Shown here: in pieces, positions 1 to 43,560 of the stretch | Layout: each line of letters starts with the position of its first letter | Position numbering within the stretch: position 1 is the stretch's first letter | Virus record (IMG/VR): IMGVR_UViG_3300013307_000025 | Span: 1-43,560 of that record | Length of the DNA stretch: 43,560 bases | Strand: one strand, 5' to 3' | Source: a virus | Translations under genes and position numbers: made by a program | The notes under the pieces: generated by a model | The model's database searches: none | What the model was told of the DNA's origin: nothing | The model's input: the letters and a program-made list of their open reading frames with translations, nothing else

Positions 1-14
1 CCAGCTACCAGCTC
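1..14. repeat. 14-bp terminal redundancy of the assembled contig
   Basis: Bases 1-14 (ccagctaccagctc) are identical to bases 43547-43560. If the two ends are merged once, the internal virion protein C frame runs through the junction without a break. If they are simply joined end to end, a stop codon appears at once. The repeat is therefore most simply an assembler overlap on a circular contig, not the phage's true terminal repeat. Confidence 0.85.
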
Positions 15-1604
15 GTGATTGTTCTTCAGGTAGTAGGAGATGTAATGCTGCTCTGTTGCATTCAGTTTACCTTCCTTCACCTCACGCTTCATCTGCTCAG
101 TCAGGTGCGCACGCAGAGTGTCCATATCGGACAATGCAGAGCGCAGCTCGGGAGTGACGAGCGAAGGATTCTCAGAAGCACGCAGGATAGCGCGGCTGCT
201 GCTGGCATGGATAGCCTCATGCAGGAACACACGCAGCTCGTGACCGTCCATGCTACCAATCACGTCAGAGATGTTCATCTTACCTTTGCCCACAGCCCCT
301 TTAGGGAATGCGAGGCGCAGGTGCTCACCCGTAAAGTCACGGCTGTTCGGATGGTAGTGCGCCCGGAAGTTGGCCTTGCGGTCAAAGTGGATTGGCACAT
401 CTTGAGCATTGTCAGCAACTGCATCCATGATGGTGCGGTACTGTGCAGGGAAGTCTTCAGGTAATTTACCCTGAGACGCCAACTCATCCAGACGGTCCAT
501 AGCGCGGGACATAGCCGGACGCATTGGGATACCTTCGACCAGTGATTTACCGGCACGGGCACCCATGACTTTGGCACCAGCTTTTGCTTGATTGGTGTTG
601 ACTGCTTTTGCTTCCAGCTCCGCATAATCCACACTACCCTGTACAGAGCGAGCCGGGATATTGTCGAAGGTTGCAACGTCATCATCAAGGTCACGGGTAC
701 TGTTCGGCATCACCGGATTATCCGGGTCCACAGTCAGGTCCGAGGCTTTACCCTCAACCGTCACTGGAGTGTCATCAGCCAGATTAGGATGCACGCCTGT
801 GTCACTTGCGTAACGCGCTGCATCTTCATTCAGGTCAGTGTTGTTTGCTCCACGGTTCCCATCGGCAGCGGCGGCACGTTCAGCATCAGCTGCAACGTCA
901 TCCACCGCCCGGTCGGACCGGACGGCTACGCGGCCAAAGCCACGCTGTAACAGGTGGGTCATATCCAGAATGCCCGTACCAGCCACCAGCGCAGATGCAG
1001 CCGGGGATTGGCCCAGCTGGTCAGCGGTATAGACAGCACTCGCCACATCATAGGTGTCGGCAGCGATACGCAGTGCAGTTGCACCGGTACGGCCAATAGC
1101 ACCTTCCTGAACGAATGGGATAAGCATTGACGGGGCATCGGCTACCAACATACCAGCCATACCTGAGATTGGGTTAGCGGCAGCGGTGGCCAGCTCCTGA
1201 CGTACTTTTGGAATCTGTGCCATACGGTACTGGTATTCCGGGATGGACTCAGAGCCTTTCAGCCACTTAATCTCATCTTCATCAGGGCGCATCTCTTTGA
1301 CACGCGGGTCATTCGCCATGAAGTCAGTTGCTTTAAAGTTTGCGTCTGCATCGAAATCAGGAGCCTGCAACTTGGTAATCAAGCCACCCAGCACAGACGC
1401 CTTGGCACCAGCCACATAACTCTGGCCCATACCAACGTTAGCCTGCTGTGCAGTCAGTCGTCCTGTTTCGCGTGCAACACTCTGCACACCGTTGTCGGTG
1501 GCATCGTCGTAGTTCATCATAGGGGTATTGCCTGCGGCATCCCCAGCTTTATCATTAGCCTTGATTGCAGCGGGGTTGCCCGGCGCACGGGTAAAGTCTA
1601 CCAT
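1..1604 (-). CDS. Internal virion protein C, N-terminal part (T7 gp16-position), with HExxH motif
   Basis: This is the start of a large internal core/ejection protein; the rest is at the other end of the window (41032-43560). The ATG at 1604 follows a good ribosome site (TTTGGAG). The frame stays open to base 1 and covers residues 1-535. Merging the 14-bp end repeat gives 1372 residues, close to T7 gp16 (1318). By position it should be ejected into the host envelope at infection. I do not see the soluble lytic transglycosylase motif that T7 gp16 has near its N-terminus. Instead residues 462-466 read HEAIH, a zinc-protease HExxH motif, in the context RVFLHEAIHA. A possible third metal ligand is E531 in NNHELVAG. 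The virion role rests on position and size; the protease is an inference from the motif. Confidence 0.85.
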   Translation of the reverse strand, partial: MVDFTRAPGNPAAIKANDKAGDAAGNTPMMNYDDATDNGVQSVARETGRLTAQQANVGMGQSYVAGAKASVLGGLITKLQAPDFDADANFKATDFMANDPRVKEMRPDEDEIKWLKGSESIPEYQYRMAQIPKVRQELATAAANPISGMAGMLVADAPSMLIPFVQEGAIGRTGATALRIAADTYDVASAVYTADQLGQSPAASALVAGTGILDMTHLLQRGFGRVAVRSDRAVDDVAADAERAAAADGNRGANNTDLNEDAARYASDTGVHPNLADDTPVTVEGKASDLTVDPDNPVMPNSTRDLDDDVATFDNIPARSVQGSVDYAELEAKAVNTNQAKAGAKVMGARAGKSLVEGIPMRPAMSRAMDRLDELASQGKLPEDFPAQYRTIMDAVADNAQDVPIHFDRKANFRAHYHPNSRDFTGEHLRLAFPKGAVGKGKMNISDVIGSMDGHELRVFLHEAIHASSSRAILRASENPSLVTPELRSALSDMDTLRAHLTEQMKREVKEGKLNATEQHYISYYLKNNHELVA

Positions 1605-1653: not shown

Positions 1654-4431
1654 TTAGTTCATCCGATTGGTCAGAGCCGCGATTGGGTTCTGTGTTGGGT
1701 CCGTTTGACGGGAGCCATCCAGAGAAGCCCAGCGGTACAGACGGTCGAGACGGTCCTTGTTACGGATACTCTTCTCGGTTCCACCTGCATCCGTGAATGA
1801 TGGCAGACCTTTGAGGGTCTTAACCACTTCAGGATAGTCAACCTCGTGACGCTGGTACTTACCCATCACCTCAGCCATTGCTTTCGCATCAGCAGGGCGC
1901 TGGTACGCCATATCAGCCAGCATCGGCAGCGTCGAGTCACCGCGTACACCGGAGTCCTGCATGTACTTCTTCGTCATCGGGATGTACCGAGACTCATACA
2001 GCTCCTTCAGCTTGACCTGCGCCTCACCCTCAGTCATCCGGTCCGGCACGGCATCGCCAGAGGCATTATGCCAACCGTAGCCCACAGAGCCATTCGACTT
2101 GGTTCCCTTGAAGCCTTCATAGCGCATGGTGTTAGCCAGCAGACCATTGAAGACGCTCGGGTCCAGCCCAACGTTGTTGGTGCCAGATACAGCCATTGTC
2201 TTATAGCCACCACGGTCATGGTCCATAAAGGTGGCGATGTTCGTACCAGCTTTAGCGGCACCGTCTGCACGCTGCTTATCCACCATCGCTGCATAATCAG
2301 ACTGAGCCTGACGTGCGATGACATTGGCGGGTAATGCGATGCGACGTGCTGTGTACTGACCATTCTGACCTTTCACAGTCACAGACATGGTGAAGTCACG
2401 AGACAGAGCACCACCAGAGTTCGGGATAATCTGTACGCTGTCCATGTTGTCCACGTTCAGACCTTGGGCCTCAAACGTGCTGGAAACGGTCTTCTGCAAT
2501 GCGTCACGATAAGTGCTGGCATCAACACCAGTAGCCTGAGCGTAAGTGTCCAGAGTGGCACCGGGCGGCAGCGTAATGTTGCTGTTGAACCGACCAACTG
2601 TAACCGGGACTGTACGGGCCTGAATGTTGCCGACCAGCATCTTGTTAATCGTCTCCGGGGATTTACCCGAGAGCAGACCACGGTCAGTATCGCTGAGGCG
2701 GGTGTACTCCGCGTACAGCTGCTGTTTCAATGCAGCCCGTTGAGATAGCTCAGAGTCTGTAGAGAGCGGGTTAATGCGCTGATACCACGAGAGGGCTGAA
2801 TCTGTGTTCAACATATTCTCAGTAGGTGCGCTCGGCACATCCTTGTACATACCCGAGTTCTTCTCAATAGCCACGCGCTTGATTGTGTCAATCACGTTGT
2901 TATTGGCGTTCTGCGGGTCTTGCTCAATCGCAGACTTAATGATGCCTTGCCAATCTTTTGGAATGGTGTTCATCAAAGTGCTACGCGTCATATCGTCGCT
3001 GGCCTGATACATGGCCATAAACCCTGTGACGTTCTCCTGCACAGACTGCGGCATCTGGTAGGTGGTATTGCCATTCTCATCGGTGACAGGCTTCATCAGA
3101 GTGCTGAGTGTATCCAGCTGGTCTGTCATCTGCGTACCGACGCGCTGCAACGCCGTCTTCACAATCCACGGGTCGTTACCCTGTGAGCCAGCGGCCAGCA
3201 TCTTCGTGTTACCTTCCATAGTGTTTGGGAAGGCTTCCTGAATAGATGACTGAATCTGGCTGCGGGTTACACCCGGCGCTGCACTGTGCAACGCTTCGAC
3301 GGATAGGCCACCACCCTGCTGGGCAGCGGCAGTCACGAGACCCTGCATCTGTAATTTGGGAGTCTGCTCCTTGTGGACCTTGTTATAGAACTCCATCATC
3401 TGCCCGGTGCTAATCCGACCAGAGGTCTGCGCTTGAATCAGAGCATCCTCAAAGTTCTTCTTAGCCTCGCCCTGCTGATATGCCGGGAGGGTGCTGATGT
3501 TGTCATAACGGTTCTGCAAGTCCATGATGGTCGTACCGGCCTGCTGCGCACCAGCACGATTCCACTCAGAGTGGATTGCGCCAGTAAGGGCAGGGTCAGT
3601 TACGCCCATGATACCGGCTGCTTTGCCTGCGAGGGCATTAATATCATCCGGGTTATTCATGTTCTGAGCAGTGGTCAGGAACAGGTTATGCAGCTGAGAT
3701 TTCTTCTCATCCTGAGTCAGCGTAGTATTGCTGGCGACCATGTTTGCTTGGTCTTCCAGATAGTGCCACGATTGGTCGAAACCAGACACTTGCAGACCAT
3801 CAAGGAAGTTCTGCTGTGCTTGGAATCCACCCTGCTCGACTGCACGAGTGTTATTAATCTTCGCCTGACCTAAGCGCGTCTTGCGCAACAGGTTCAGAGA
3901 TGACTGTTGTGTGTTATCCAGAGAACGGGCCACGGCACCGACAGTATCGGCATCCATGTGTGGCAGGTAGCGGCCCAATGAGTTGAGCAGCTGCGCGTTA
4001 TTCTGGCGCTCTTGATGAAGAAAGTCTTCATCGGACATACCCTGCATCCCGGCCTGTTGAGCACGGGTGGTAATGCCAGCTTGGAAGTCGGTCAGGTTCT
4101 GCTGTACAGCGGCACCGAGGTAGCCTTTCTGGTACGCATCACGCATAAAGATATTCTGTTTCGACGCGGCGCTATCTGAGTTCTTCAGTGCATCCGGGTC
4201 TTGGGTTGCGTCAATCTGGCCCTGCGCCGCAGCGCGTTTCTGGCCTTCCTGAATCGCAGGTTGGAACGTACCCATGAAGCCGTTGAGGAAGCTACTGATA
4301 GCCTCATTCTTCGCATCATACTTCGGTTGTACTTCCTGAACTTGAGGGGCAGCAGCGCCAACCATGTAGTTAGTGCCGCCAATTTGCAGCTCACCGCTAC
4401 CGGTGTTAACGTCTTGGCGTAATACAGGCAT
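1654..4431 (-). CDS. Internal virion protein B with C-terminal lysozyme-like domain (phiKMV gp36-like)
   Basis: This 925-residue protein occupies the T7 gp15 position in the internal core. The long N-terminal part is Gln/Ala-rich and mostly helical in character. Around residues 765-905 a lysozyme-like segment appears: MRYEGF with a candidate catalytic Glu, then a glycine-rich GYGW motif like the GYG of T4-type lysozymes. In phiKMV the equivalent gp36 carries a muralytic domain at its C-terminus, so this is the likely peptidoglycan-opening activity during DNA entry. The reading frame can be extended one codon to a GTG, but the ATG at 4431 fits the AAGGAGG site (6-nt spacing). Gene A ends 15 bp upstream. 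The lysozyme call comes from motif and position, not from an alignment. Confidence 0.85.
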   Translation of the reverse strand: MPVLRQDVNTGSGELQIGGTNYMVGAAAPQVQEVQPKYDAKNEAISSFLNGFMGTFQPAIQEGQKRAAAQGQIDATQDPDALKNSDSAASKQNIFMRDAYQKGYLGAAVQQNLTDFQAGITTRAQQAGMQGMSDEDFLHQERQNNAQLLNSLGRYLPHMDADTVGAVARSLDNTQQSSLNLLRKTRLGQAKINNTRAVEQGGFQAQQNFLDGLQVSGFDQSWHYLEDQANMVASNTTLTQDEKKSQLHNLFLTTAQNMNNPDDINALAGKAAGIMGVTDPALTGAIHSEWNRAGAQQAGTTIMDLQNRYDNISTLPAYQQGEAKKNFEDALIQAQTSGRISTGQMMEFYNKVHKEQTPKLQMQGLVTAAAQQGGGLSVEALHSAAPGVTRSQIQSSIQEAFPNTMEGNTKMLAAGSQGNDPWIVKTALQRVGTQMTDQLDTLSTLMKPVTDENGNTTYQMPQSVQENVTGFMAMYQASDDMTRSTLMNTIPKDWQGIIKSAIEQDPQNANNNVIDTIKRVAIEKNSGMYKDVPSAPTENMLNTDSALSWYQRINPLSTDSELSQRAALKQQLYAEYTRLSDTDRGLLSGKSPETINKMLVGNIQARTVPVTVGRFNSNITLPPGATLDTYAQATGVDASTYRDALQKTVSSTFEAQGLNVDNMDSVQIIPNSGGALSRDFTMSVTVKGQNGQYTARRIALPANVIARQAQSDYAAMVDKQRADGAAKAGTNIATFMDHDRGGYKTMAVSGTNNVGLDPSVFNGLLANTMRYEGFKGTKSNGSVGYGWHNASGDAVPDRMTEGEAQVKLKELYESRYIPMTKKYMQDSGVRGDSTLPMLADMAYQRPADAKAMAEVMGKYQRHEVDYPEVVKTLKGLPSFTDAGGTEKSIRNKDRLDRLYRWASLDGSRQTDPTQNPIAALTNRMN

Positions 4432-4445
4432 CACTGCCCTCCTTG

Positions 4446-5120
4446 TTAGTTACCCAGCAGATTGCTGGATTGGAATTTGAAGCTCAGACCAAATGGATTC
4501 TTTGCAGCATTCGGGTCTGAATTAAAGCCTTGATAGTCGTAGGAACCTGTCGGCGTACCCTGCGCAGCTGTAACAGGAGCGCCGGGTGTTGTGCTGTTCG
4601 TACCGCTGGCGTATTTACCCGCCATAGAGCCGAGCACTGTACCGGCTGCGCCCATCAGGGCATTATCCATCACTTCACTGGAATGGTCTTCCACCGCATT
4701 CTTCAGCGAGTTACGGCCATTCGTGGTAATCTTCTCCAGCATGATGTTGCTCTGGTCGATTGCACGCATATAGTCGTTCTGCTGAGAGCCTACAGCCTGA
4801 GACTGTTTCTGGTTTACGGTGCTGATAGCGTCATTGACACTCGCTCCGATGGTGTCGGTCCCTGCTGCCTGCGCTGTGATTTGGTCACGCGCAGACATTC
4901 CTTGCAGGCCCACATTGTACAGAGCAGCTGTCGTCTGCTCACGCTGTTGTGCGCGTTGCAGATTAAGCTCAGTCGTCTGTTGCAATGTTTCGTACATGAC
5001 TTTCTTGTTGTAGTCCTGCACCATCTTATTCTGAGCGATGCTGGTCTCAGCTGCGGCCTTAGCCTGCTTTGAACCAGCATACACCTGAGACGCCACCTGC
5101 GCCACTAATAGCCATGCCAT
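4446..5120 (-). CDS. Internal virion protein A (T7 gp14-position)
   Basis: This 224-residue protein is the first of the three consecutive internal virion genes, similar in length to T7 gp14 (196). It has a short hydrophobic N-terminus (MAWLLVAQVASQVYAG) followed by a long Gln/Ala-rich helical region. A Gly/Ala stretch near residues 155-170 (ALMGAAGTVLGSMAGKYA) could insert in a membrane. The start codon overlaps the stop of the tail tubular B gene (TAAATGG), which suggests coupled translation. In T7 the equivalent protein leaves the virion first and forms the outer-membrane part of the ejection channel. The assignment rests on order, size and composition. Confidence 0.78.
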   Translation of the reverse strand: MAWLLVAQVASQVYAGSKQAKAAAETSIAQNKMVQDYNKKVMYETLQQTTELNLQRAQQREQTTAALYNVGLQGMSARDQITAQAAGTDTIGASVNDAISTVNQKQSQAVGSQQNDYMRAIDQSNIMLEKITTNGRNSLKNAVEDHSSEVMDNALMGAAGTVLGSMAGKYASGTNSTTPGAPVTAAQGTPTGSYDYQGFNSDPNAAKNPFGLSFKFQSSNLLGN

Positions 5121-12619: not shown

Positions 12620-12642
12620 TCTCTCTATAACGTGTCTCACAA
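12620..12642 (-). promoter_or_regulatory. Phage RNA polymerase promoter (late, second copy)
   Basis: The minus strand reads TTGTGAGACACGTTATAGAG, matching four other copies in the window. By analogy with SP6 (GTGACACTATAG) and T7 promoters, transcription should start at the G of TATAG, position 12625. It drives the GNAT-like gene and the head genes, with a very short 12-nt leader. Confidence 0.82.
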
Positions 12643-12655
12643 TTGCATGAGTTTG

Positions 12656-12710: not shown

Positions 12711-12726
12711 ACAACGTGTCTCTTAA
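12704..12726 (-). promoter_or_regulatory. Phage RNA polymerase promoter (late, first copy)
   Basis: The minus strand reads TTAAGAGACACGTTGTAGAG, one mismatch from the GAGACACGTTATAGAG core. Its 5' edge overlaps the TAA stop codon of the RNA polymerase gene. The predicted start is G at 12709. Together with the copy at 12625 it gives a tandem promoter pair for the structural genes. Confidence 0.75.
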
Positions 12727-15173
12727 CAGAAAAAGAACGGTGAACTTTTGACCAGTTCCAGATTCAGGTTGCCTTGAACCGGAGACGGAATCTCAGAGGT
12801 ATCACCACCCATCGCCTCAGCTGCGGCCCGGATAATTTCCAGTGGCTCATGCTTCGTGTACAGGTCATAGAACGCTTCACGAATCGCTGTGTGCATCTCA
12901 TCACAATCAGCAGCGTGTGTCGCCAGTGAATCGTGAATCGGCACCAGTGCTCCAGAGAAGTACAGCGCAACCATCATCAGGTGTGTGCTGTCCATGCTGT
13001 GAACAAAGTTCGGCGCAATGCCAGACGCTGCTTTACGGCGGTTGTTCAGCGTGTAGTCGCGGTTGTAGGCTACGACTTTTGTCAGGCCCATACTGCGGAT
13101 GTTCACGCGCTGCTCTTCCGTTGTGGTGTAGCGGTTAATCACTAGCCCACCCAGCGGCGTCTCCCACTCCAGATGATTCTCCAGTGGGATTGTGCGGCAC
13201 ACCTGCTGCAAGAACTTCATGGCCCGTGCTGCTGCTGGCATGGCGTCTTCGATTGACTGACGCATCAGCGGAGCGAGGAAGCCGGACAGCTTCATCATGC
13301 TGAACTCTTCCAGCGGCTGATACCCTTCGTCACGAGCACCCAGCAGGATGTAATCAGAGCAACTGCGCACGGTGGCGCTGTAGAAGAAGGTCATGCTCGG
13401 ACGCTTCGTCATGCTGCGGGTGATTTCATTCTCCTGCCAATACTTCGACTGCACCACGGTATCCGGGTTGCGTCCGGCCACCAGCACCTTCGAATCAGTG
13501 CGACGTTTCACGTCCATGTACAGGTCAGCTTTCTTGTCGTTACCATCCCAAAACAGGTTGGTCAGCTTACCGCCCACTTCATCTCGCAGCATGGCTGAGA
13601 AGTGTTGGCCACCAGAGTTGGTAGCATCCATAGCGATTGGGAGGTGCGATACAAACTCTGACGGGTTGCCAGACTGAACAGCATTAACCAGCTCGATACA
13701 AGCGGCCAAGAAGCACCACGGAGAGTCGGCATTCTTAAAAGAGTCCGAGTCAAATGGAGAAGTTGCAACGCGCTCAATCTCTGCATAGTGCAAATCAACC
13801 CAAGCTGCACGCTCTTCGAATAAGGCTTTGTCATAACCAAACGTAGTGGCGACGTTAACTTTGAGCCAGAATAATCCCCGATTTCCCAAGGGCTTACCCT
13901 CTGCGAATACAAGTAGTGCCTTCTGCAAATCAGAACCTTGAGGGTTGATTGCTGACTTGAAGTAGACACGGTAGCGCCAATCGACACAGGTCGGGAAGTA
14001 CAGGGCTTCTTCGTCTTTGAACTCATTACACAGCTCCAGTGTTGTTGCAGTACCGCGCAGCTGAGACACACGCTTGCGCTCGTCGCTATACCACTGACGG
14101 GCCAGCGCCTTCCACTCGTCAAAGTCTTCCAGCTCACGCTCGTCATACTTCTCTTTCGGGATACCTTCGAGACGCCACTCCGGTTTCGGAGCCTGTCGTG
14201 TACTCGGCATTCCAATCCCGATACCTTGTGCTCGTGCAGCCTGCACAAGGTCCAATACAGCGGTGTTCACTTTGTATGGCGTGTTCTGAATCTTGTTCAG
14301 CGCCTTCTTCATCTCAGTCGCTTTCTCAAATGACTCAGCAACTTTGCGACGTAACTTATTGGTAATGTGGCGGTTTTTGTAAGTACCACGGCGGTCAATA
14401 TCCGTGAGGTAGCCACCGTCAAACATCGTGGTGTGCTCAATCGGCGGGATAATCATTGGTGGCATAACCATCAGCATATCGCTGTGAGTCACTACGTCCA
14501 CCAGCACTTTCTCCAGCGCCGCCTCCGGCACCAGATAATTCATCTGGTTGGAGTGGGCCACCCACTTGAACAGACCGGTTTCAAACAGAGCCTGCATCAG
14601 CAGCTTACCGACCGCGATACACTCAGTGTTGCACCACGGCTCATGGTTCAGCTTCACAGCATCAGCAGAGGCCCGGAGAGTACGCAGGATGTGCGATGCA
14701 CTGCGAGTGTGCTTCTCCTTCATGTACTCATGCACCCGGTTGATGTAGGCCGGTGCCGCTACTTCCAGATTGCGGTTCAGAATCTCAGCCTGCACGATGC
14801 GGCCTAAGCCAGCCATCAGAGCCTGTGCTGATGATTTGGTCTGCGACTCTGCGCAGATGCTGTCCAGTACATACACCAGAGAGGCAGTGGCCAGTACGTC
14901 AGTCTCAACGAGACGGAGATACTTGCGGTACTTCCCGCCTTTGCCCGGTGCTTTGTCGTTCTTAACCTTTTCAATCTCATCGGCTACAGTGCCGAATGCT
15001 GCGCTTATCAGACGCGAGACAGGGAGTAATTCAGATGCGCGGCCCTTATCCAGAGCATCCTTGACTGCCTTGCGGCTACGGTCAATGGCGCGGGTTCGTG
15101 CTGCCTTCTCAATTTCGAGCTGGCGTTCTACTTTTGCTTCTGTGATGTTCAAGCTATTCTTGGCCGTCTGCAT
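12723..15173 (-). CDS. Single-subunit DNA-directed RNA polymerase (T7 gp1-like)
   Basis: This 816-residue enzyme transcribes the phage middle and late genes. Visible family motifs: DATNSGGQHFSAMLRDE (motif A; T7 has DGSCSGIQHFSA), TKRPSMTFFYSA (motif B; T7 has KRSVMTLAYG), and VPIHDSLATHAAD (motif C, catalytic Asp in HDS). The C-terminus is FFFC where T7 ends FAFA. The ATG at 15173 follows TTTAAGGAGTATCAG; an upstream ATG at 15236 lies within a neighbouring gene. Its location after the replication genes and before the structural genes is the phiKMV-type layout; in T7 and SP6 it is an early gene. A phage promoter begins within its stop codon. Confidence 0.97.
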   Translation of the reverse strand: MQTAKNSLNITEAKVERQLEIEKAARTRAIDRSRKAVKDALDKGRASELLPVSRLISAAFGTVADEIEKVKNDKAPGKGGKYRKYLRLVETDVLATASLVYVLDSICAESQTKSSAQALMAGLGRIVQAEILNRNLEVAAPAYINRVHEYMKEKHTRSASHILRTLRASADAVKLNHEPWCNTECIAVGKLLMQALFETGLFKWVAHSNQMNYLVPEAALEKVLVDVVTHSDMLMVMPPMIIPPIEHTTMFDGGYLTDIDRRGTYKNRHITNKLRRKVAESFEKATEMKKALNKIQNTPYKVNTAVLDLVQAARAQGIGIGMPSTRQAPKPEWRLEGIPKEKYDERELEDFDEWKALARQWYSDERKRVSQLRGTATTLELCNEFKDEEALYFPTCVDWRYRVYFKSAINPQGSDLQKALLVFAEGKPLGNRGLFWLKVNVATTFGYDKALFEERAAWVDLHYAEIERVATSPFDSDSFKNADSPWCFLAACIELVNAVQSGNPSEFVSHLPIAMDATNSGGQHFSAMLRDEVGGKLTNLFWDGNDKKADLYMDVKRRTDSKVLVAGRNPDTVVQSKYWQENEITRSMTKRPSMTFFYSATVRSCSDYILLGARDEGYQPLEEFSMMKLSGFLAPLMRQSIEDAMPAAARAMKFLQQVCRTIPLENHLEWETPLGGLVINRYTTTEEQRVNIRSMGLTKVVAYNRDYTLNNRRKAASGIAPNFVHSMDSTHLMMVALYFSGALVPIHDSLATHAADCDEMHTAIREAFYDLYTKHEPLEIIRAAAEAMGGDTSEIPSPVQGNLNLELVKSSPFFFC

Positions 15174-15183
15174 CTGATACTCC

Positions 15184-15297
15184 TTAAAGGTTACGTGATT
15201 TCCACAACTCATACATTTCGAGGTATGCTTTCGCATCCTCCTGACGGCCCTCTTCGACCGCCAGTTCGTACATCATTCTACACCATTCACTCTGCAT
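15184..15297 (-). CDS. Small acidic protein before RNA polymerase
   Basis: This 37-residue protein (MQSEWCRMMYELAVEEGRQE at the start) is probably a single helical unit with E/Y-rich repeats. The ATG at 15297 follows AAGGGCTTTGCT and overlaps the end of the DUF3310 gene by 11 bp. The longer frame from 15384 is a shadow of that gene. No family recognised. Its tight overlap on one side and 10-bp gap to the RNA polymerase on the other suggest it is translated as part of the operon. Confidence 0.6.
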   Translation of the reverse strand: MQSEWCRMMYELAVEEGRQEDAKAYLEMYELWKSRNL

Positions 15298-18331: not shown

Positions 18332-19195
18332 TCAGGCAGTCGGTGCCGCTGGTGCAGTTGGTGCAGCAGGCGCTGCCGGAGCAGCTGGAGCTACAGGAGC
18401 CGCAGGTGCAGCCGGTGCCGCTGGAGTTACTGGAGCAGCCGGGGTTTCCGCAGCCGGTGCAGTTGGCGTGGCCGGTGCAGCCGGGGCCAGTTGCTCTGGC
18501 GTTGGTACACCACCTTCCAGCAGCTGTTGCAGAGGTGAGCCGTTGTAGTCCACAGCCTTCAGGATATCTTCCTGAATGAAGTTCTTGCTCTCACCCTTGT
18601 CATTCTTACCTTCAATGAACAGGCTGTCCCACGTTTCCTGAGTTGGGTTAGCCCACAGGAACAGCTTCAGTTCACCCGGCTGAACCTCTGGCACCACGAT
18701 TGGCTCGCCTGATTCAGGGTCAAACTTCGGCAGCGCGGTGATTGACGCATAGTTGATTGCGTTGAACTCTTTACCCGCCTTGCTGGTCTCTTTGGTGACT
18801 TCAGCGCGGAACGCTTGGCCCAGCTTCTGAGCAGCGTGACGCACATCGCCTTTGCGGTTCAGACGGTCGAAGAAGATTTTGAACTTCGCCTTCTCACTGT
18901 TGCTCACCGCCAGCAGCATTGAACGGTTACGCACTTCTTCACCGTTCGGACCGTAGATGATGAAGCCGATACGGACATTCAGCATCGGTGGACGGCCAGT
19001 TGGCTTACCCATGTACATCGGAGTGCGCTTACCGTACTCAACATATTCAGTGAAGCGGATGTTGTAGTCACCAGCTTCCAGCAGAATCTTTTCAAATCCA
19101 CCAGTGCCAGTTTCGGTCATATCCACGTCTTGAGTTTCCAGCGCGGTGTTTACCAGTGAGTCCAGATTAGCCAGTGGGTTGAATGGAGTAGTCAT
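18332..19195 (-). CDS. Putative ssDNA-binding protein with long Ala-Pro C-terminal tail
   Basis: This 287-residue protein has a beta-rich N-terminal 200 residues that look OB-fold-like (YNIRFTEYVEYG, LNVRIGFIIYG, ELKLFLW). It is followed by a tail of about 55 residues built almost only of Ala, Pro and Thr (AAP, ATPT, APV units). It occupies the place of a T7 gp2.5-type ssDNA-binding protein in the replication operon, but I do not recognise gp2.5 motifs, and the usual acidic C-terminus is absent. The family call is an inference. The ATG at 19195 follows GAGGCTATACATTT. Confidence 0.6.
   Translation of the reverse strand: MTTPFNPLANLDSLVNTALETQDVDMTETGTGGFEKILLEAGDYNIRFTEYVEYGKRTPMYMGKPTGRPPMLNVRIGFIIYGPNGEEVRNRSMLLAVSNSEKAKFKIFFDRLNRKGDVRHAAQKLGQAFRAEVTKETSKAGKEFNAINYASITALPKFDPESGEPIVVPEVQPGELKLFLWANPTQETWDSLFIEGKNDKGESKNFIQEDILKAVDYNGSPLQQLLEGGVPTPEQLAPAAPATPTAPAAETPAAPVTPAAPAAPAAPVAPAAPAAPAAPTAPAAPTA
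18336..18500 (-). repeat. Low-complexity Ala-Pro coding repeat
   Basis: This segment encodes the Ala/Pro/Thr tail of the ssDNA-binding candidate. It consists of imperfect 6- to 9-base GC-rich units such as GCTCCGGC and GCACCTGCG, so synonymous codons vary. Such a region may expand or contract by slippage. Confidence 0.85.
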
Positions 19196-29978: not shown

Positions 29979-30001
29979 ACTGACTATAACGTGTCTCACA
30001 A
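29979..30001 (-). promoter_or_regulatory. Phage RNA polymerase promoter (early/middle)
   Basis: The minus strand reads ATTGTGAGACACGTTATAG, identical to the late copy at 12625 through position +1. Predicted start is G at 29984. It should let the phage polymerase transcribe the rest of the early block, the ligase and the replication genes. Confidence 0.8.
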
Positions 30002-30041
30002 TTCAAGGCAGGCCAGCTAAGTTACTGACCTGCCAGTGTTA

Positions 30042-33253: not shown

Positions 33254-33277
33254 TAAACGATTTACGTTAAAGAATAA

Positions 33278-33300
33278 TTATGAGACACGTTATAGAGTGA
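33278..33300 (+). promoter_or_regulatory. Phage RNA polymerase promoter facing away from all genes
   Basis: The plus strand reads TTATGAGACACGTTATAGAG, an exact match to the core of the minus-strand copies. Predicted start is G at 33295, running toward the presumed genome end and then antisense to the endolysin gene. No plus-strand gene is supported downstream. It may serve replication or end processing rather than mRNA synthesis. Confidence 0.75.
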
Positions 33301-38428: not shown

Positions 38429-41002
38429 TTAGTTGACGGCTGAACCGTCTTTTGCACGTACCCACTTTAGGCCATCCGAGAACAGCAGCTCAAAGCGAGT
38501 GGATGCACCGGAACCAGTACCGGAGTCAGTACACAGGATTACGCCGTATGCGTTCTCACCATCTGCGCGTGGCAGGTCAGCTTTGGCATAGCGGTTAACA
38601 CGGGTAGACTCCATTGTTGCCTGAACCGGGATGTAGCGGTCCTGATAGTTGTTCTTGATGTGCAGGTAGCGACCAGCAGCAGCACCTTCCTCCGGCGATG
38701 CCAGAAGCAGCGTACCACTATCAAGGTCCATACCGAGGCCGGTGTTGTTCTCACCAGTACCCGCGATACCGCCGTTCACAGCCCACACTTTGTGCGCCTG
38801 CTTCAGGTTAGCCACGCTACCGATATCAACCGGTGCATCGCTACCAGCACGGTAGTAGAACGGAGAGCCAGATGAGATACGGCCTACACCATCTGAACGC
38901 AGGAACACGCCCATTACGCGGGTGAACGCACCCATACGCACGTAGATATCAAAGCTCTGCCATGCGTGAACATAGCGAACCTCACGGATTGGACACGCGC
39001 CCTCACCATGCCACGACAGCTGGATGCCGTCTGCTGATGCCACGTTGTACTTCAGCTGACCACGAATCAGCGCACGACCGCCACCGAAACCGGTAGAGCC
39101 GGGGTGGTTCGTACTGGAGCCGATGTTATCGTAACCAGCCGCACCCTGAAGCTCCAGCTCAAAGGTAGCGCCCAGCGTGCTGTTCTGGATGACTCGACCA
39201 ACGTTAATCCACTTCTCGTTACCTGTGTTGTTCAGCAGGCGCATTTCCGGGAGTGGGTTCTGGAAGCCCATAGCCAGACCATTCTGAAGCGCGGAGCCTT
39301 TCGGGTCCAGCTGAATGGTGCCTTGGTCCATTGCGTTAGTCACCCACGTTGGCGGTTTGCCACTTGGGTCCCATGACGGGTCATAACCAGATACGTCGAA
39401 GCTCAGACCAGCACCCTGCTCAAAGCGGCAGTTAATGCGAGTCAGCTTGGTGTACTTGGCACCTGATGGATTGACGCTGTTCTCCTGAGTTACGTTCTTC
39501 AGCACCCAGCCACCCTGCGAGATATCGAAGCCACGCTCGTTGCGGTCAAACCAGACGTTGTTCATCTCAGACTGACCTGCGCGGATACATGACACAGCGA
39601 ACTCGCCGGTATGACCTTCGAAGTTAGAGTTTGAGATTTCAATCGCAGTCGGGTGGTCCCACGCGCCCGGTGATTCATTCGACCAATCGGTACGGAAGAA
39701 TGACGCCTTGCCCTGAGACGAGTAGCACTGGTCCAGTTTGGTGTCGATGGTGTCAAAGACGTGGAATACACGACCGGTCATGCCACGGGCCTGAATCGCA
39801 TGGATTCGGCAGTAGTCACCACGGGTCACGGTATTCTCAAGGAAGCCTTTGGTACTTGCGGCACCGTTGATGTTCAGGTTAGCCACTTCCATACGGCGAG
39901 CCTTGAACCGGATAGCATAGGCATTGGCATGGTCCAGCAGGCGCAGCTGCGCACGCGGCAGACGGCCATAGGCCACTTCAGGTCCACGCAGTTTGAATGC
40001 AGGAATCTCGGCGTTGCCCAAATCCCACGAGCTAATCGCGGTCAGACCCGGACCCAGCACAATGCCCGGACCAAAGGTTGCGTCGATGCCACGAGACCAT
40101 GCGTGCATACGCTTCATGGATTCGATATCATCCGTAACGCCATCACTACGAGCGCCGAAGTGTTCGATGGTGACAGAGTTCAGCTCAATCATACGACGCC
40201 AGCGAGCGCCATTCAGACCAACGATGATGATACCACCGTCATCAGGTGAGGTTGTGTCAGAGGCAACATACTCAAAGAAGCCACCACCTTTCACTGAACC
40301 TTCGACGTAGCCGACCACAGACACGAAGCGGCGGTCCTGACGCGGGGCCAGTTGACGCAGTGCTTCGATGCTCGGTACACGACCGAGGATGCTCATGCCG
40401 TCGATATCTTGCAGGTCCAGCTCCAGCTCAGTTGCCGAGCCTTCGATAGGCGTGGCTGATACCGGGTTGCCGATGCTGTCAAAGCCCAGCAGCTTGTTCT
40501 TACGGCCATTCACGGTAGGTGTAGGCTGTACAGTCGCTTCCGGTACACGGATAGCCTTCTGGTTCACTTCCCGCACTTCTGCATCGACATATTTCTTATT
40601 CGCTGCATCGGTGTCATAGATTGGTGAGCCGAGGTTCGTGATACGGAAGGTGTTCATGCTGATATCACCATAGAAGCCTTCAATGCTTCGGCCTTCTACC
40701 AGCTCCTGAGACAGGTACAGGAATTGGGTATTCTGTTCATCCAGATTGCTGCGGTCAAATGCTGCACCTTCAGAGAACTGGATACGCAGATGCTCACGCT
40801 CAGTGCGACGCATCACGAGGATTTCTTCGCCACCGGTAAGCGGGGCAGGCAGACGCACGTTCGTATCACTCACCCACGTAAAGCCTTTCACTTCACCGCC
40901 ATTCACGTACAGGTAGATATCCTGCCGCTGCATATAGGGAATATTAATTGATACTTGAATCTGACCGGGTGCTGCGGTTTCAGTCTGCCATGAATTAGCC
41001 AT
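38429..41002 (-). CDS. Tail fibre/spike with T7-type N-terminus and beta-helix (putative depolymerase)
   Basis: This 857-residue protein binds the host surface. Residues 1-150 have the T7 gp17-type attachment domain (INIPYMQRQDIYLYVNGG, VMRRTEREHL, FLYLSQELVEGR). From about 260 it has the pectate-lyase-like beta-helix entry motif (EHFGARSDGVTDD) and helix-type repeats up to about 600. The C-terminus (YGVILCTDSGTGSG... RFELLFSDGLKWVRAKDGS) is of the tail-spike type. The layout suggests cleavage of a surface polysaccharide. No catalytic residues can be assigned. The ATG at 41002 follows TATGGAGTAATAC. Confidence 0.9.
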   Translation of the reverse strand: MANSWQTETAAPGQIQVSINIPYMQRQDIYLYVNGGEVKGFTWVSDTNVRLPAPLTGGEEILVMRRTEREHLRIQFSEGAAFDRSNLDEQNTQFLYLSQELVEGRSIEGFYGDISMNTFRITNLGSPIYDTDAANKKYVDAEVREVNQKAIRVPEATVQPTPTVNGRKNKLLGFDSIGNPVSATPIEGSATELELDLQDIDGMSILGRVPSIEALRQLAPRQDRRFVSVVGYVEGSVKGGGFFEYVASDTTSPDDGGIIIVGLNGARWRRMIELNSVTIEHFGARSDGVTDDIESMKRMHAWSRGIDATFGPGIVLGPGLTAISSWDLGNAEIPAFKLRGPEVAYGRLPRAQLRLLDHANAYAIRFKARRMEVANLNINGAASTKGFLENTVTRGDYCRIHAIQARGMTGRVFHVFDTIDTKLDQCYSSQGKASFFRTDWSNESPGAWDHPTAIEISNSNFEGHTGEFAVSCIRAGQSEMNNVWFDRNERGFDISQGGWVLKNVTQENSVNPSGAKYTKLTRINCRFEQGAGLSFDVSGYDPSWDPSGKPPTWVTNAMDQGTIQLDPKGSALQNGLAMGFQNPLPEMRLLNNTGNEKWINVGRVIQNSTLGATFELELQGAAGYDNIGSSTNHPGSTGFGGGRALIRGQLKYNVASADGIQLSWHGEGACPIREVRYVHAWQSFDIYVRMGAFTRVMGVFLRSDGVGRISSGSPFYYRAGSDAPVDIGSVANLKQAHKVWAVNGGIAGTGENNTGLGMDLDSGTLLLASPEEGAAAGRYLHIKNNYQDRYIPVQATMESTRVNRYAKADLPRADGENAYGVILCTDSGTGSGASTRFELLFSDGLKWVRAKDGSAVN

Positions 41003-41021: not shown

Positions 41022-41041
41022 GGGCGACCCATTAGTCGCCC
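41022..41041 (-). other. Stem-loop overlapping the stop codon of internal virion protein C
   Basis: GGGCGAC-TAATGG-GTCGCCC forms a perfect 7-bp stem, and the TAA in its loop is the stop codon of the internal virion protein C gene. ACCCTTTATGGAG follows, then the tail fibre start. It may be a weak terminator or processing site that separates the two messages. Confidence 0.6.
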
Positions 41042-43560
41042 GAGGTGTTGTTAATCAAAATACGCAGAGGAATAAACTCCTGCGCCAGTGGCATCAGCTT
41101 ACTCGCATCCTGTGCTGACATTTCACCCTTACGGGCAACGCCTTGCAGAGTCTGAATAATGCTGTTGACGCTACCAAACATGGAGACGCCACCGCCACGC
41201 TGGTTTGTGCTGAACAGGTCCATCAGCATGGACGCACCACCAATTGCACTCATACCAGACACGGCGTCATGAATCAGGTCAGAGCTGGATTTCTCGTCCA
41301 GCTTACCGTCCATACCATAACGCACGTAGGTCATCAGAGCCATCATTGGGAACTGGTACGCCAGTAGGATTGCCCCGCCCATCATTTCTTCTGAGCCATT
41401 CTCCAGATGACGACGCAGGATTTTGTTGGTCCCGGCAAATGCGAAAGACTGATAACCAATCAGCACGCGGCCAATCGGGTTCATCTCTGCGAAGTGCGCA
41501 GTCTCACCAGTGCGGTTCTGCTGAACCACGTAATCCATAAAGCGTTGCCCTACAGCTTCCAGATGCGTCTGCAATTCAGGTTTGAACGCAGCACCCGGAT
41601 TAGCGGCGTAGGCAGCTCGCATATCATCCAGAGCAGATTGGCGCAGGCCGAACTTACCCAGCAGCTTCGCATCCTTGGCTGAACCACCCAGCGCGGCCAT
41701 GATTGAATCCTGAATAAGTCCAGCATTCATGTTGACCATAGCGCGGTGAATGGCACGCATACCGTTTGCACTGTATGCGGCCTGAGAGAAGTTGCGGAGG
41801 ACATTAACCATATGCGCAGAGCGAGTCAGGTCAGTGTTATCGTCGGCCAATGTATGCAGCCATTTGAAGCGCATATCATTCTGCGTGGCACCGCTGAGGA
41901 TGTTGTGCAGACGCTGATGCAGATTCTGGTCCCGGCCCAGCTCTACGCGAGCATGTTTGAACAGGCCACCTTGCATCATGCTACGCACGACACGGGCCAT
42001 ACCAAACTCTTTCGCTGCGAGGGCGAGGTCGGTCAGCTGATACAGACCGGAGTTCTTCAGCATCATGGCATTGGACAGATAGCCGGAGGCCAACATCCAA
42101 TCCGGGGTAGCGCCTTGGGCAGGGTAGCCCATCAGCACATCCACGGTGTCATCCACTTTACTGGTCCAATCATCAGGTTTAGCCACGGTGTTACGCAGCT
42201 CATCAATCTGGTTCACGATATCCTTCATATCCGGTGTACCCTTCGCAGCAAACGCTACGCGGCCAGACATGCGGTTATTGTATTGGTTCATCAGCTTGGA
42301 CACGTCAGTATCCATGATATCGGCCAGCTTCATTGTCCGGCCCGACTGAGTGGTATACACTTTCTGCATATCCAGCTCATTACGCTTACGCAGGTTACGC
42401 GCCGGGTTGGAGCCGGTACGCTCAGAGGCGAACACGGACTTCTCCAGAATGGCAGCGGCGTCTTCACGCGCTACACCATTCTCCAGCAGCAGCTCAACGA
42501 ACTCATCGTTGCTCATACCGTTAATAGCCCGACGCCACATAGCGCCCTGCTTCGGCTGTGCAGAGGTCAGACCCTGATACCATGTACGGGCAACCTGACG
42601 AGACAGGTCACGGTCCATAGCTGGATATGCGTCACGCATAGCGAGACTGAACACATCCACAAAGTCTTTCTGAGCAAAGCCCTTCTCACGGGTCAGAGTA
42701 CGAATCTTGTCGCTGCTGTAGCGGCGTGGCAGGTAATATGGAGACTTCTCGAATCGGCCCTCGTTGTTGATGCCTGCATTCTGCATGTGGTCGAACCAAC
42801 GCTCGGACCAGCCGGACTCAGTGAACGCATTAACAACACGTTCGATGTGGGCAGGTGGCGGGTCGATTGGACGGCCATTGCGATACTCGCCATGTGCATA
42901 GTCCAGATACTTGGCGAGGTCATTCTCCAGAGCCTGTCGTTTCTCAACGAAGTTCTTACGGTAGAAGAACTGGTCCAGCTTACCGGTGCCAGTGCGTGAC
43001 AGCTCATCTGTGATAGCCTTCTCAACGATACCAGTGACGGCATCCATCTCGGACTTATACAGACGCTTCAGGTCAGCAACAGCTTCAGCACGCTCACCAA
43101 CTTTCGTACCGTCTGCAACGAGGAAGTCAGCAAACTCGGCAGTAGCCGCAGTATCCTGTGCAATCTCATCACGCAGAGAGAAGAAACGCTGTGCAGTGGT
43201 CTTGAACTGTTTGAACATAGCAGTAGCAGCCGCCTCTTCCCGGCGACCAGCAGGTGCAGACTTAACGGCAGCGCGAGCAGCCTCGGTCATTCCCTTCATC
43301 GCGCCGGAGGTAAACTCTGGAGCCATGCGGTTTGCAGCCTGCTTACCGAGGCCGGAGCCATTCGGACCAGAGGCCAGTAAATCTTCCAGTGCATCGGCTA
43401 CATCGGTCAGCCCGGTGCGAGCGCCCGGTTTCATACCCAGCACGCGCATGATGCTCTTACCCAGCTGACGCAGGGCAGATTCTTTACCACGCACGGAGGT
43501 CTGACGTTGTAGGAACGCTGTGTAGTTGCCTTGGTTGTCACCGAGGCCAGCTACCAGCTC
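41032..43560 (-). CDS. Internal virion protein C, C-terminal part
   Basis: This is the rest of the protein that starts at 1604: residues 531-1372, reading in from base 43560 with no start codon of its own. A GTG at 43494 can be read as a start but it is internal. After a Lys/Arg-rich link the sequence is long and helical, with several weakly hydrophobic segments (for example MMGGAILLAYQFPMMALMTYV near residue 1270). Such segments fit a protein that crosses the inner membrane during ejection. It ends NNTSGD. Role by position equals T7 gp16 and its phiKMV counterpart. Confidence 0.88.
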   Translation of the reverse strand, partial: ELVAGLGDNQGNYTAFLQRQTSVRGKESALRQLGKSIMRVLGMKPGARTGLTDVADALEDLLASGPNGSGLGKQAANRMAPEFTSGAMKGMTEAARAAVKSAPAGRREEAAATAMFKQFKTTAQRFFSLRDEIAQDTAATAEFADFLVADGTKVGERAEAVADLKRLYKSEMDAVTGIVEKAITDELSRTGTGKLDQFFYRKNFVEKRQALENDLAKYLDYAHGEYRNGRPIDPPPAHIERVVNAFTESGWSERWFDHMQNAGINNEGRFEKSPYYLPRRYSSDKIRTLTREKGFAQKDFVDVFSLAMRDAYPAMDRDLSRQVARTWYQGLTSAQPKQGAMWRRAINGMSNDEFVELLLENGVAREDAAAILEKSVFASERTGSNPARNLRKRNELDMQKVYTTQSGRTMKLADIMDTDVSKLMNQYNNRMSGRVAFAAKGTPDMKDIVNQIDELRNTVAKPDDWTSKVDDTVDVLMGYPAQGATPDWMLASGYLSNAMMLKNSGLYQLTDLALAAKEFGMARVVRSMMQGGLFKHARVELGRDQNLHQRLHNILSGATQNDMRFKWLHTLADDNTDLTRSAHMVNVLRNFSQAAYSANGMRAIHRAMVNMNAGLIQDSIMAALGGSAKDAKLLGKFGLRQSALDDMRAAYAANPGAAFKPELQTHLEAVGQRFMDYVVQQNRTGETAHFAEMNPIGRVLIGYQSFAFAGTNKILRRHLENGSEEMMGGAILLAYQFPMMALMTYVRYGMDGKLDEKSSSDLIHDAVSGMSAIGGASMLMDLFSTNQRGGGVSMFGSVNSIIQTLQGVARKGEMSAQDASKLMPLAQEFIPLRILINNTSGD
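43547..43560. repeat. Second copy of the 14-bp contig-end repeat
   Basis: Identical to bases 1-14; see that entry. Counting it once gives 43546 bp of unique sequence. Confidence 0.85.

Follow-up and report, generated by a model that had tools for sequence, protein, structure and literature searches.

A predicted gluzincin-type metallopeptidase domain in the gp16-type ejection protein of an Erwinia-phage-like podovirus

The window analyzed here is a 43,560-nucleotide stretch of viral DNA (positions 1 to 43,560 of IMG/VR record IMGVR_UViG_3300013307_000025). Its first 14 and last 14 bases are identical (1-14 = 43547-43560). These ends mark the contig as a circularly permuted genome, and because it was linearized within a gene for a large ejection protein, this gene is split between the two ends of the window. 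When one copy of the overlap was dropped, a single gene of 4119 nt was obtained, encoding 1372 aa with no internal stops. The joined protein is equal in length to a protein of Erwinia phage Zoomie (QXG07763.1) and differs from it at 9 residues; the N-terminal part (residues 1-534) is 98.7% identical. It consists of a conserved N-terminal domain, with hydrophobic segments near residues 146-164 and 201-219 in a hydropathy scan, a zincin-like domain, and a T7-type gp16 body, and it occupies the gp16 place in a gp14-gp15-gp16 trio, with the genes for the gp14-like protein and protein B upstream of it (Table 1). A Pfam scan of the joined protein matched no family.

Table 1. Features of the ejection-protein locus in the window and of related genes on other contigs
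Feature	Coordinates	Strand	Basis
N-terminal part (residues 1-534), gp16-like large ejection protein	3..1604	-	open frame, ATG 1604 to window edge
Conserved N-terminal domain (residues 27-232)	909..1526	-	matches PDB 23sg_S (gp10) residues 26-231
Zincin-like domain, first part (residues ~346-534)	1..569	-	domain alignments; phrog_2206 E 2.7e-7; AlphaFold2 model
HEAIH: H462, E463, H466 (predicted two zinc ligands and general base)	207..221	-	invariant in 26 sequences
E531, predicted third zinc ligand, in NxxE(L/F/M)(V/I/L/M)A	12..14	-	invariant in alignments
Protein B, gp15-like, 926 aa, C-terminal lysozyme-type domain (MRYEGF...GSVGYGWH)	1654..4434	-	phrog_2083 'internal virion lysozyme motif' E 1.7e-172
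gp14-like internal virion protein, third of the ejection trio	4446..5120	-	Pfam T7_gp14 E 1e-31
Rest of ejection protein (residues 531-1372), 842-aa frame	41032..43560	-	14-base overlap; phrog_342 E 1.4e-138
Ejection-protein body common to T7-type gp16	41041..43284	-	phrog_342, residues 93-840 of the 842-aa frame
Zincin-like domain, last part (residues ~535-600)	43351..43548	-	domain alignment
GNAT-bearing ejection genes of relatives	L028 and L031, 3175-7434; L032, 3172-7434		Pfam PF00583

This phage encodes its RNA polymerase in a separate gene (12723-15236), and no RNA polymerase module was found in the ejection protein by Pfam and PHROGs scans, only the phrog_342 body and the zincin-like domain. 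Candidate phage RNA polymerase promoters are the exact repeats of AATTRTGAGACACGTTATAG at 12625-12644 (-), 29984-30003 (-) and 33276-33295 (+), with 0.01 expected by chance. The copy at 33276 lies on the strand opposite to the other two and to the structural genes. Elsewhere in the window, the reverse strand encodes a 287-aa protein (18332-19195; phrog_862, function unknown) with a long Pro-Ala repeat tail made of 9-base tandem repeats. It also encodes a tail fibre or tailspike (38429-41002) with a T7-type N-terminus, which matches the EPS depolymerase family phrog_4250 (E 2.6e-209).

The initial annotation had proposed an HExxH zinc-protease motif in the large ejection protein, with E531 completing a gluzincin-like site, and the comparative data support this. 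HEAIH is read in frame at residues 462-466 (codons 221-207) within RVFLHEAIHA (residues 458-467). E531 lies in NNHELVA at the window edge and is followed, across the junction, by NYTAFLQRQ. An HExxH arises in 1.7% of shuffles of the joined protein; a chance origin is nevertheless ruled out because 26 relatives, some with as little as 13-20% identity, all keep the motif. The 26-row alignment, in which identity to the window protein is 13-55% and distant metagenomic virion proteins account for the 13-20% range, has exactly five invariant columns: H462, E463, H466, A467 and E531. Loss of H462, E463 or H466 was looked for among the relatives and none was lost; E531 is the sole invariant acidic residue besides E463. 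The same five columns, plus one Leu, are invariant in a separate 12-row alignment that includes phiKMV and two N4-type polymerases. HExxH is found at the equivalent place in LIMElight, Micant, Vibrio phage KF2, KP34, PSTRCR_114, PM16, Buco, phiKMV, PhiM1 and Strit. Thus the domain is not peculiar to this phage; it is common to LIMElight-, KP34-, PhiM1- and some phiKMV-type phages as well as N4-type vRNAPs. Among the KP34-like phages its dN/dS (0.06-0.11, versus 0.04-0.08 for the body) indicates purifying selection, similar to that on the body.

Profile comparisons connect the domain to the virion RNA polymerase of phage N4. The N4-type vRNAP family phrog_2206 matches the domain in the window and in 26 of 26 members. 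Slopekvirinae-type, LIMElight-type and PhiM1 sequences alone, with no N4-like rows, were used to build a profile; searched against PDB sequences, it recovered a phiKMV-type internal virion protein (2.7e-12) and N4 vRNAP (2.6e-5). When the domain was compared profile to profile with N4-type sequences (hhalign), the result was 97.5% with an E-value of 6.3e-12 over 142 columns that include the HExxH helix. On these matches, the domain is a homologue of N4 vRNAP's C1/zincin domain. The N4 vRNAP region was unified with the zincin metallopeptidases by HHpred (Iyer et al. 2017, PMC5512222), and the same authors describe zincins as having the HEXXH motif in one helix and a Glu ligand in the helix that follows. 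In its accessible text, the N4 vRNAP structure preprint (PMC12633501) notes the conserved HExxH of the C1 domain without giving it a function.

The AlphaFold2 model of the window fragment, with pLDDT mostly 75-97 in the first part of the domain, has a helix, three strands, a long HEAIH helix and a later E531 helix. The HEAIH motif lies within one long helix (model residues 155-179, protein residues 454-478), and E531 lies in a predicted helix (model residues 230-234) that is shortened by the window edge. This order of elements is the zincin order (PMC5512222), which counts for the zincin reading. Foldseek in BFVD matched the ejection proteins of LIMElight (E 3.5e-16) and of phiKMV-type phages (2.3e-5), with SprT-like zincins among the weak matches. 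Against the PDB, Foldseek gave no significant match for the window-fragment model or for a KP34 model; the latter matched only unrelated helical proteins and no conclusion on the fold was drawn from it. Single-sequence Pfam scans of the domain were silent or weak, each weak match occurring in few members (SprT-like, 0.015; DUF6782, 0.0086; M91, 0.034); DUF3267, a zincin family, was also among them. The Pfam family MPTase-PolyVal (PF18818) was tried and rejected: the proteins of the window, Zoomie, KP34, phiKMV, PhiM1, N4, Nepra and EcP1 all failed to reach its curated cut-off. The relatives on viral contigs were retrieved with the broader domain alignment as query; the window protein alone, or a Zoomie-type alignment, retrieved at most one partial relative. 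Support in the domain tree is too weak to separate two origins of the phiKMV domain, acquisition from the vRNAP side and common ancestry with KP34. One of the matched contigs, Xanthomonas phage Olaya (L015, match at 1701-2213), contains two HExxH motifs (frame residues 572 and 774) in a long frame that carries no annotation.

Taken on its sequence features, the domain is very probably zincin-like, and there is a good chance that it is an active peptidase. The zinc site is predicted to be of the gluzincin type, with two His and one Glu as ligands and a catalytic Glu. The invariance of E463 besides the ligands counts for catalysis, since a purely structural zinc site would not need a general-base Glu and would tolerate its loss.

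The domain is, as the alignments indicate, an accessory cassette that is present or cleanly missing among relatives. LKA1 and MR16 lack any equivalent of residues 243-597 of the phiKMV protein, although their bodies are 44-50% identical to that of phiKMV and the N-terminal domain also aligns. Strit, which like phiKMV belongs to the Krylovirinae, carries the domain. It is also missing in Bolek, forsur and Acinetobacter phages, where the rest of the protein is kept. Other domains are found next to it: i) in KpV48, myPSH1235, SFN6B and ZH5, the linker directly upstream of the zincin has an extra segment of ~190 residues, identified as a GNAT acetyltransferase in the three examples scanned (PF00583, 29-32 bits versus a cut-off of 20.7); ii) two distant relatives, Xanthomonas phage F5 (L014, 2234-5413) and contig L041 (2341-7362), have an N-terminal SLT and the zincin in one protein; and iii) in contigs L047 and L053, the zincin is combined with the polyvalent-protein domain LPD39. 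GNATs and zincins are both listed by Iyer et al. among the protein-acting domains of polyvalent proteins delivered with phage DNA (PMC5512222). A broader reading, which we put forward tentatively, is that the linker before the body of T7-type large ejection proteins may generally be a slot in which exchangeable enzymes (zincin, GNAT, transglycosylase) travel as cargo, to be delivered with the DNA into the host envelope or cytoplasm. The ejectosome would then be an effector-delivery machine, with the zincin cutting one particular host protein within the first minute of infection.

The ejection proteins of T7- and N4-type phages are packaged in the virion and exit before or with the DNA. In the mechanism proposed here, the zincin cassette, placed between the N-terminal domain and the structural body of the gp16-type protein of this Erwinia-phage-like podovirus, would be folded in the internal core of the virion and would travel through the tail with the ejection protein. 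Refolding would follow, either at the inner membrane or in the periplasm. The ligands of a single Zn2+ would be H462, H466 and E531, and the role of E463 would be to activate water for the cut of the peptide bond, with one or a few host proteins being cleaved at the very start of infection. Zinc binding, catalysis, compartment and a host-directed substrate are all predictions. The full statement, an ejected and active zincin metallopeptidase with a host-protein target, is about evenly balanced between being right and wrong.

Each step of this mechanism has to be set against other readings, beginning with the names that the relatives already carry. Database entries call them 'peptidoglycan lytic exotransglycosylase' or 'internal virion protein with endolysin domain', and residues 268-528 of the PhiM1 tetrameric ejection protein (TEP) were assigned as endolysin/exotransglycosidase-like from BLASTP and DALI (PMC11440229); that cryo-EM paper uses none of the words protease, peptidase and HEXXH. 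That the domain is an endolysin or lytic transglycosylase, as in PHROGs, the GenBank product names and the PhiM1 paper, is hardly credible, because the PhiM1 segment (PDB 8VB2; L021, 4981-5847) is the one that aligns with the zincin and carries HEAAH at 385, and because the invariant residues match a zinc peptidase site. The zincin profile matches 8vb2_A 264-551 with an E-value of 3.7e-77, PhiM1 being itself a member of the profile. Furthermore, Pfam finds SLT (PF01464) in the T7 gp16 control (1.7e-31) and none in the Zoomie, KP34, phiKMV and PhiM1 proteins, in line with the initial annotation, which saw no transglycosylase here and placed the muralytic domain on protein B. A lysozyme-type domain is indeed found on protein B, and because all 11 aligned proteins keep its catalytic-type Glu, protein B is the probable site of the muralytic activity. 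The PhiM1 label is thus probably wrong, and was perhaps inherited from T7 gp16. The zincin need not substitute for the transglycosylase, as the two occur together in F5 and L041, and the suggestion that it is a replacement is not supported. T7 gp16 (L023) has an HERLH at residue 559, apparently in the body and outside the zincin position, which is probably due to chance.

If the domain is a metallopeptidase, the main rival to a host target is that it acts on the ejection proteins of the phage itself, cutting itself or its partners after ejection and thereby releasing domains or opening or dismantling the trans-envelope channel. A cut at the domain would part the N-terminal domain from the body, autoprocessing was proposed for the zincin domains of polyvalent proteins, and the zincin-bearing DdrB of phage P1 is processed before packaging (Iyer et al. 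2017, PMC5512222). N4 vRNAP is, however, packaged unprocessed (PMC5512222), and LKA1, MR16, forsur, Bolek and the Acinetobacter phages lack the domain, so the ejectosome functions there without a zincin. We regard self-processing as rather doubtful. Host proteins are the more likely target, and host-directed cargo is favored over an essential function in self-processing or channel assembly because the cassette can be absent with the body kept, the linker can hold a GNAT, and distant homologues adjoin LPD39; the host-directed role thus draws on the pattern of presence and absence. The fold might instead be kept for docking or structural purposes, such as organizing DNA around the core, with catalysis unused. 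The zinc binding is a prediction, and the domain lies in the large ordered core of the PhiM1 virion, where loops were proposed as DNA guides (PMC11440229), but a general-base Glu and three ligands invariant in 26 divergent sequences make a purely structural role unlikely. A metal enzyme that is not a protease, for instance an iron/alpha-ketoglutarate HExxH oxygenase, is even less probable. The N4 vRNAP preprint mentions HExxH in radical-SAM-linked enzymes of such kind as an alternative (PMC12633501), but the downstream Glu and the helix-strand order fit zincins (PMC5512222) and the weak matches point to zincin families, SprT-like in both Pfam and BFVD and DUF3267.

Four known systems come closest to the domain and its protein. 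The C1 domain of N4-type vRNAPs (Schitoviridae; Iyer et al. 2017, PMC5512222; Bellis et al. 2025 preprint, PMC12633501) is homologous and shares the five invariant residues (H, E, H, A, E), and N4 vRNAP, like the window protein, is large, head-packaged and ejected. The N4 domain is part of a vRNAP, whereas that of the window is fused to a T7-gp16-type ejection protein with no RNA polymerase. The zincins of polyvalent proteins, including PF18818, also have an HExxH helix and a downstream Glu helix in carriers that are delivered with phage DNA, and some homologues of the window domain adjoin LPD39 as in polyvalent proteins; the PF18818 model, however, matches neither the window domain nor the N4 domain. 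T7 gp16 has a homologous body in the same slot of the trio but carries an N-terminal SLT and no zincin cassette, whereas the window phage has its lysozyme domain on protein B. The PhiM1 ejection protein (PDB 8VB2, PMC11440229) is a full-length homologue with the same domain in the same place, published as endolysin/exotransglycosidase-like and read here as zincin-like. The literature searched, an incomplete coverage with most subscription journals outside it, held no report of a zincin in T7-gp16-type or Autographiviridae ejection proteins and no record of activity or zinc binding for any member of the domain. The kind of enzyme is already known from N4-type polymerases and polyvalent proteins; its occurrence in T7-gp16-type ejection proteins appears to be unreported.

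Ejection proteins are usually viewed as channel parts plus a cell-wall hydrolase. With the cassette in the largest of them, the DNA may be accompanied or preceded into the cell by a protein-cutting enzyme. The cassette is common to phages of Klebsiella, Vibrio, Pectobacterium, Erwinia and Pseudomonas, and solved structures already hold the domain, 8VB2 under another label and N4 vRNAP with the motif alone noted. The zincin reading would correct the existing annotation of the relatives, and natural variants with (phiKMV, Strit) and without (LKA1, MR16) the cassette make its role testable.
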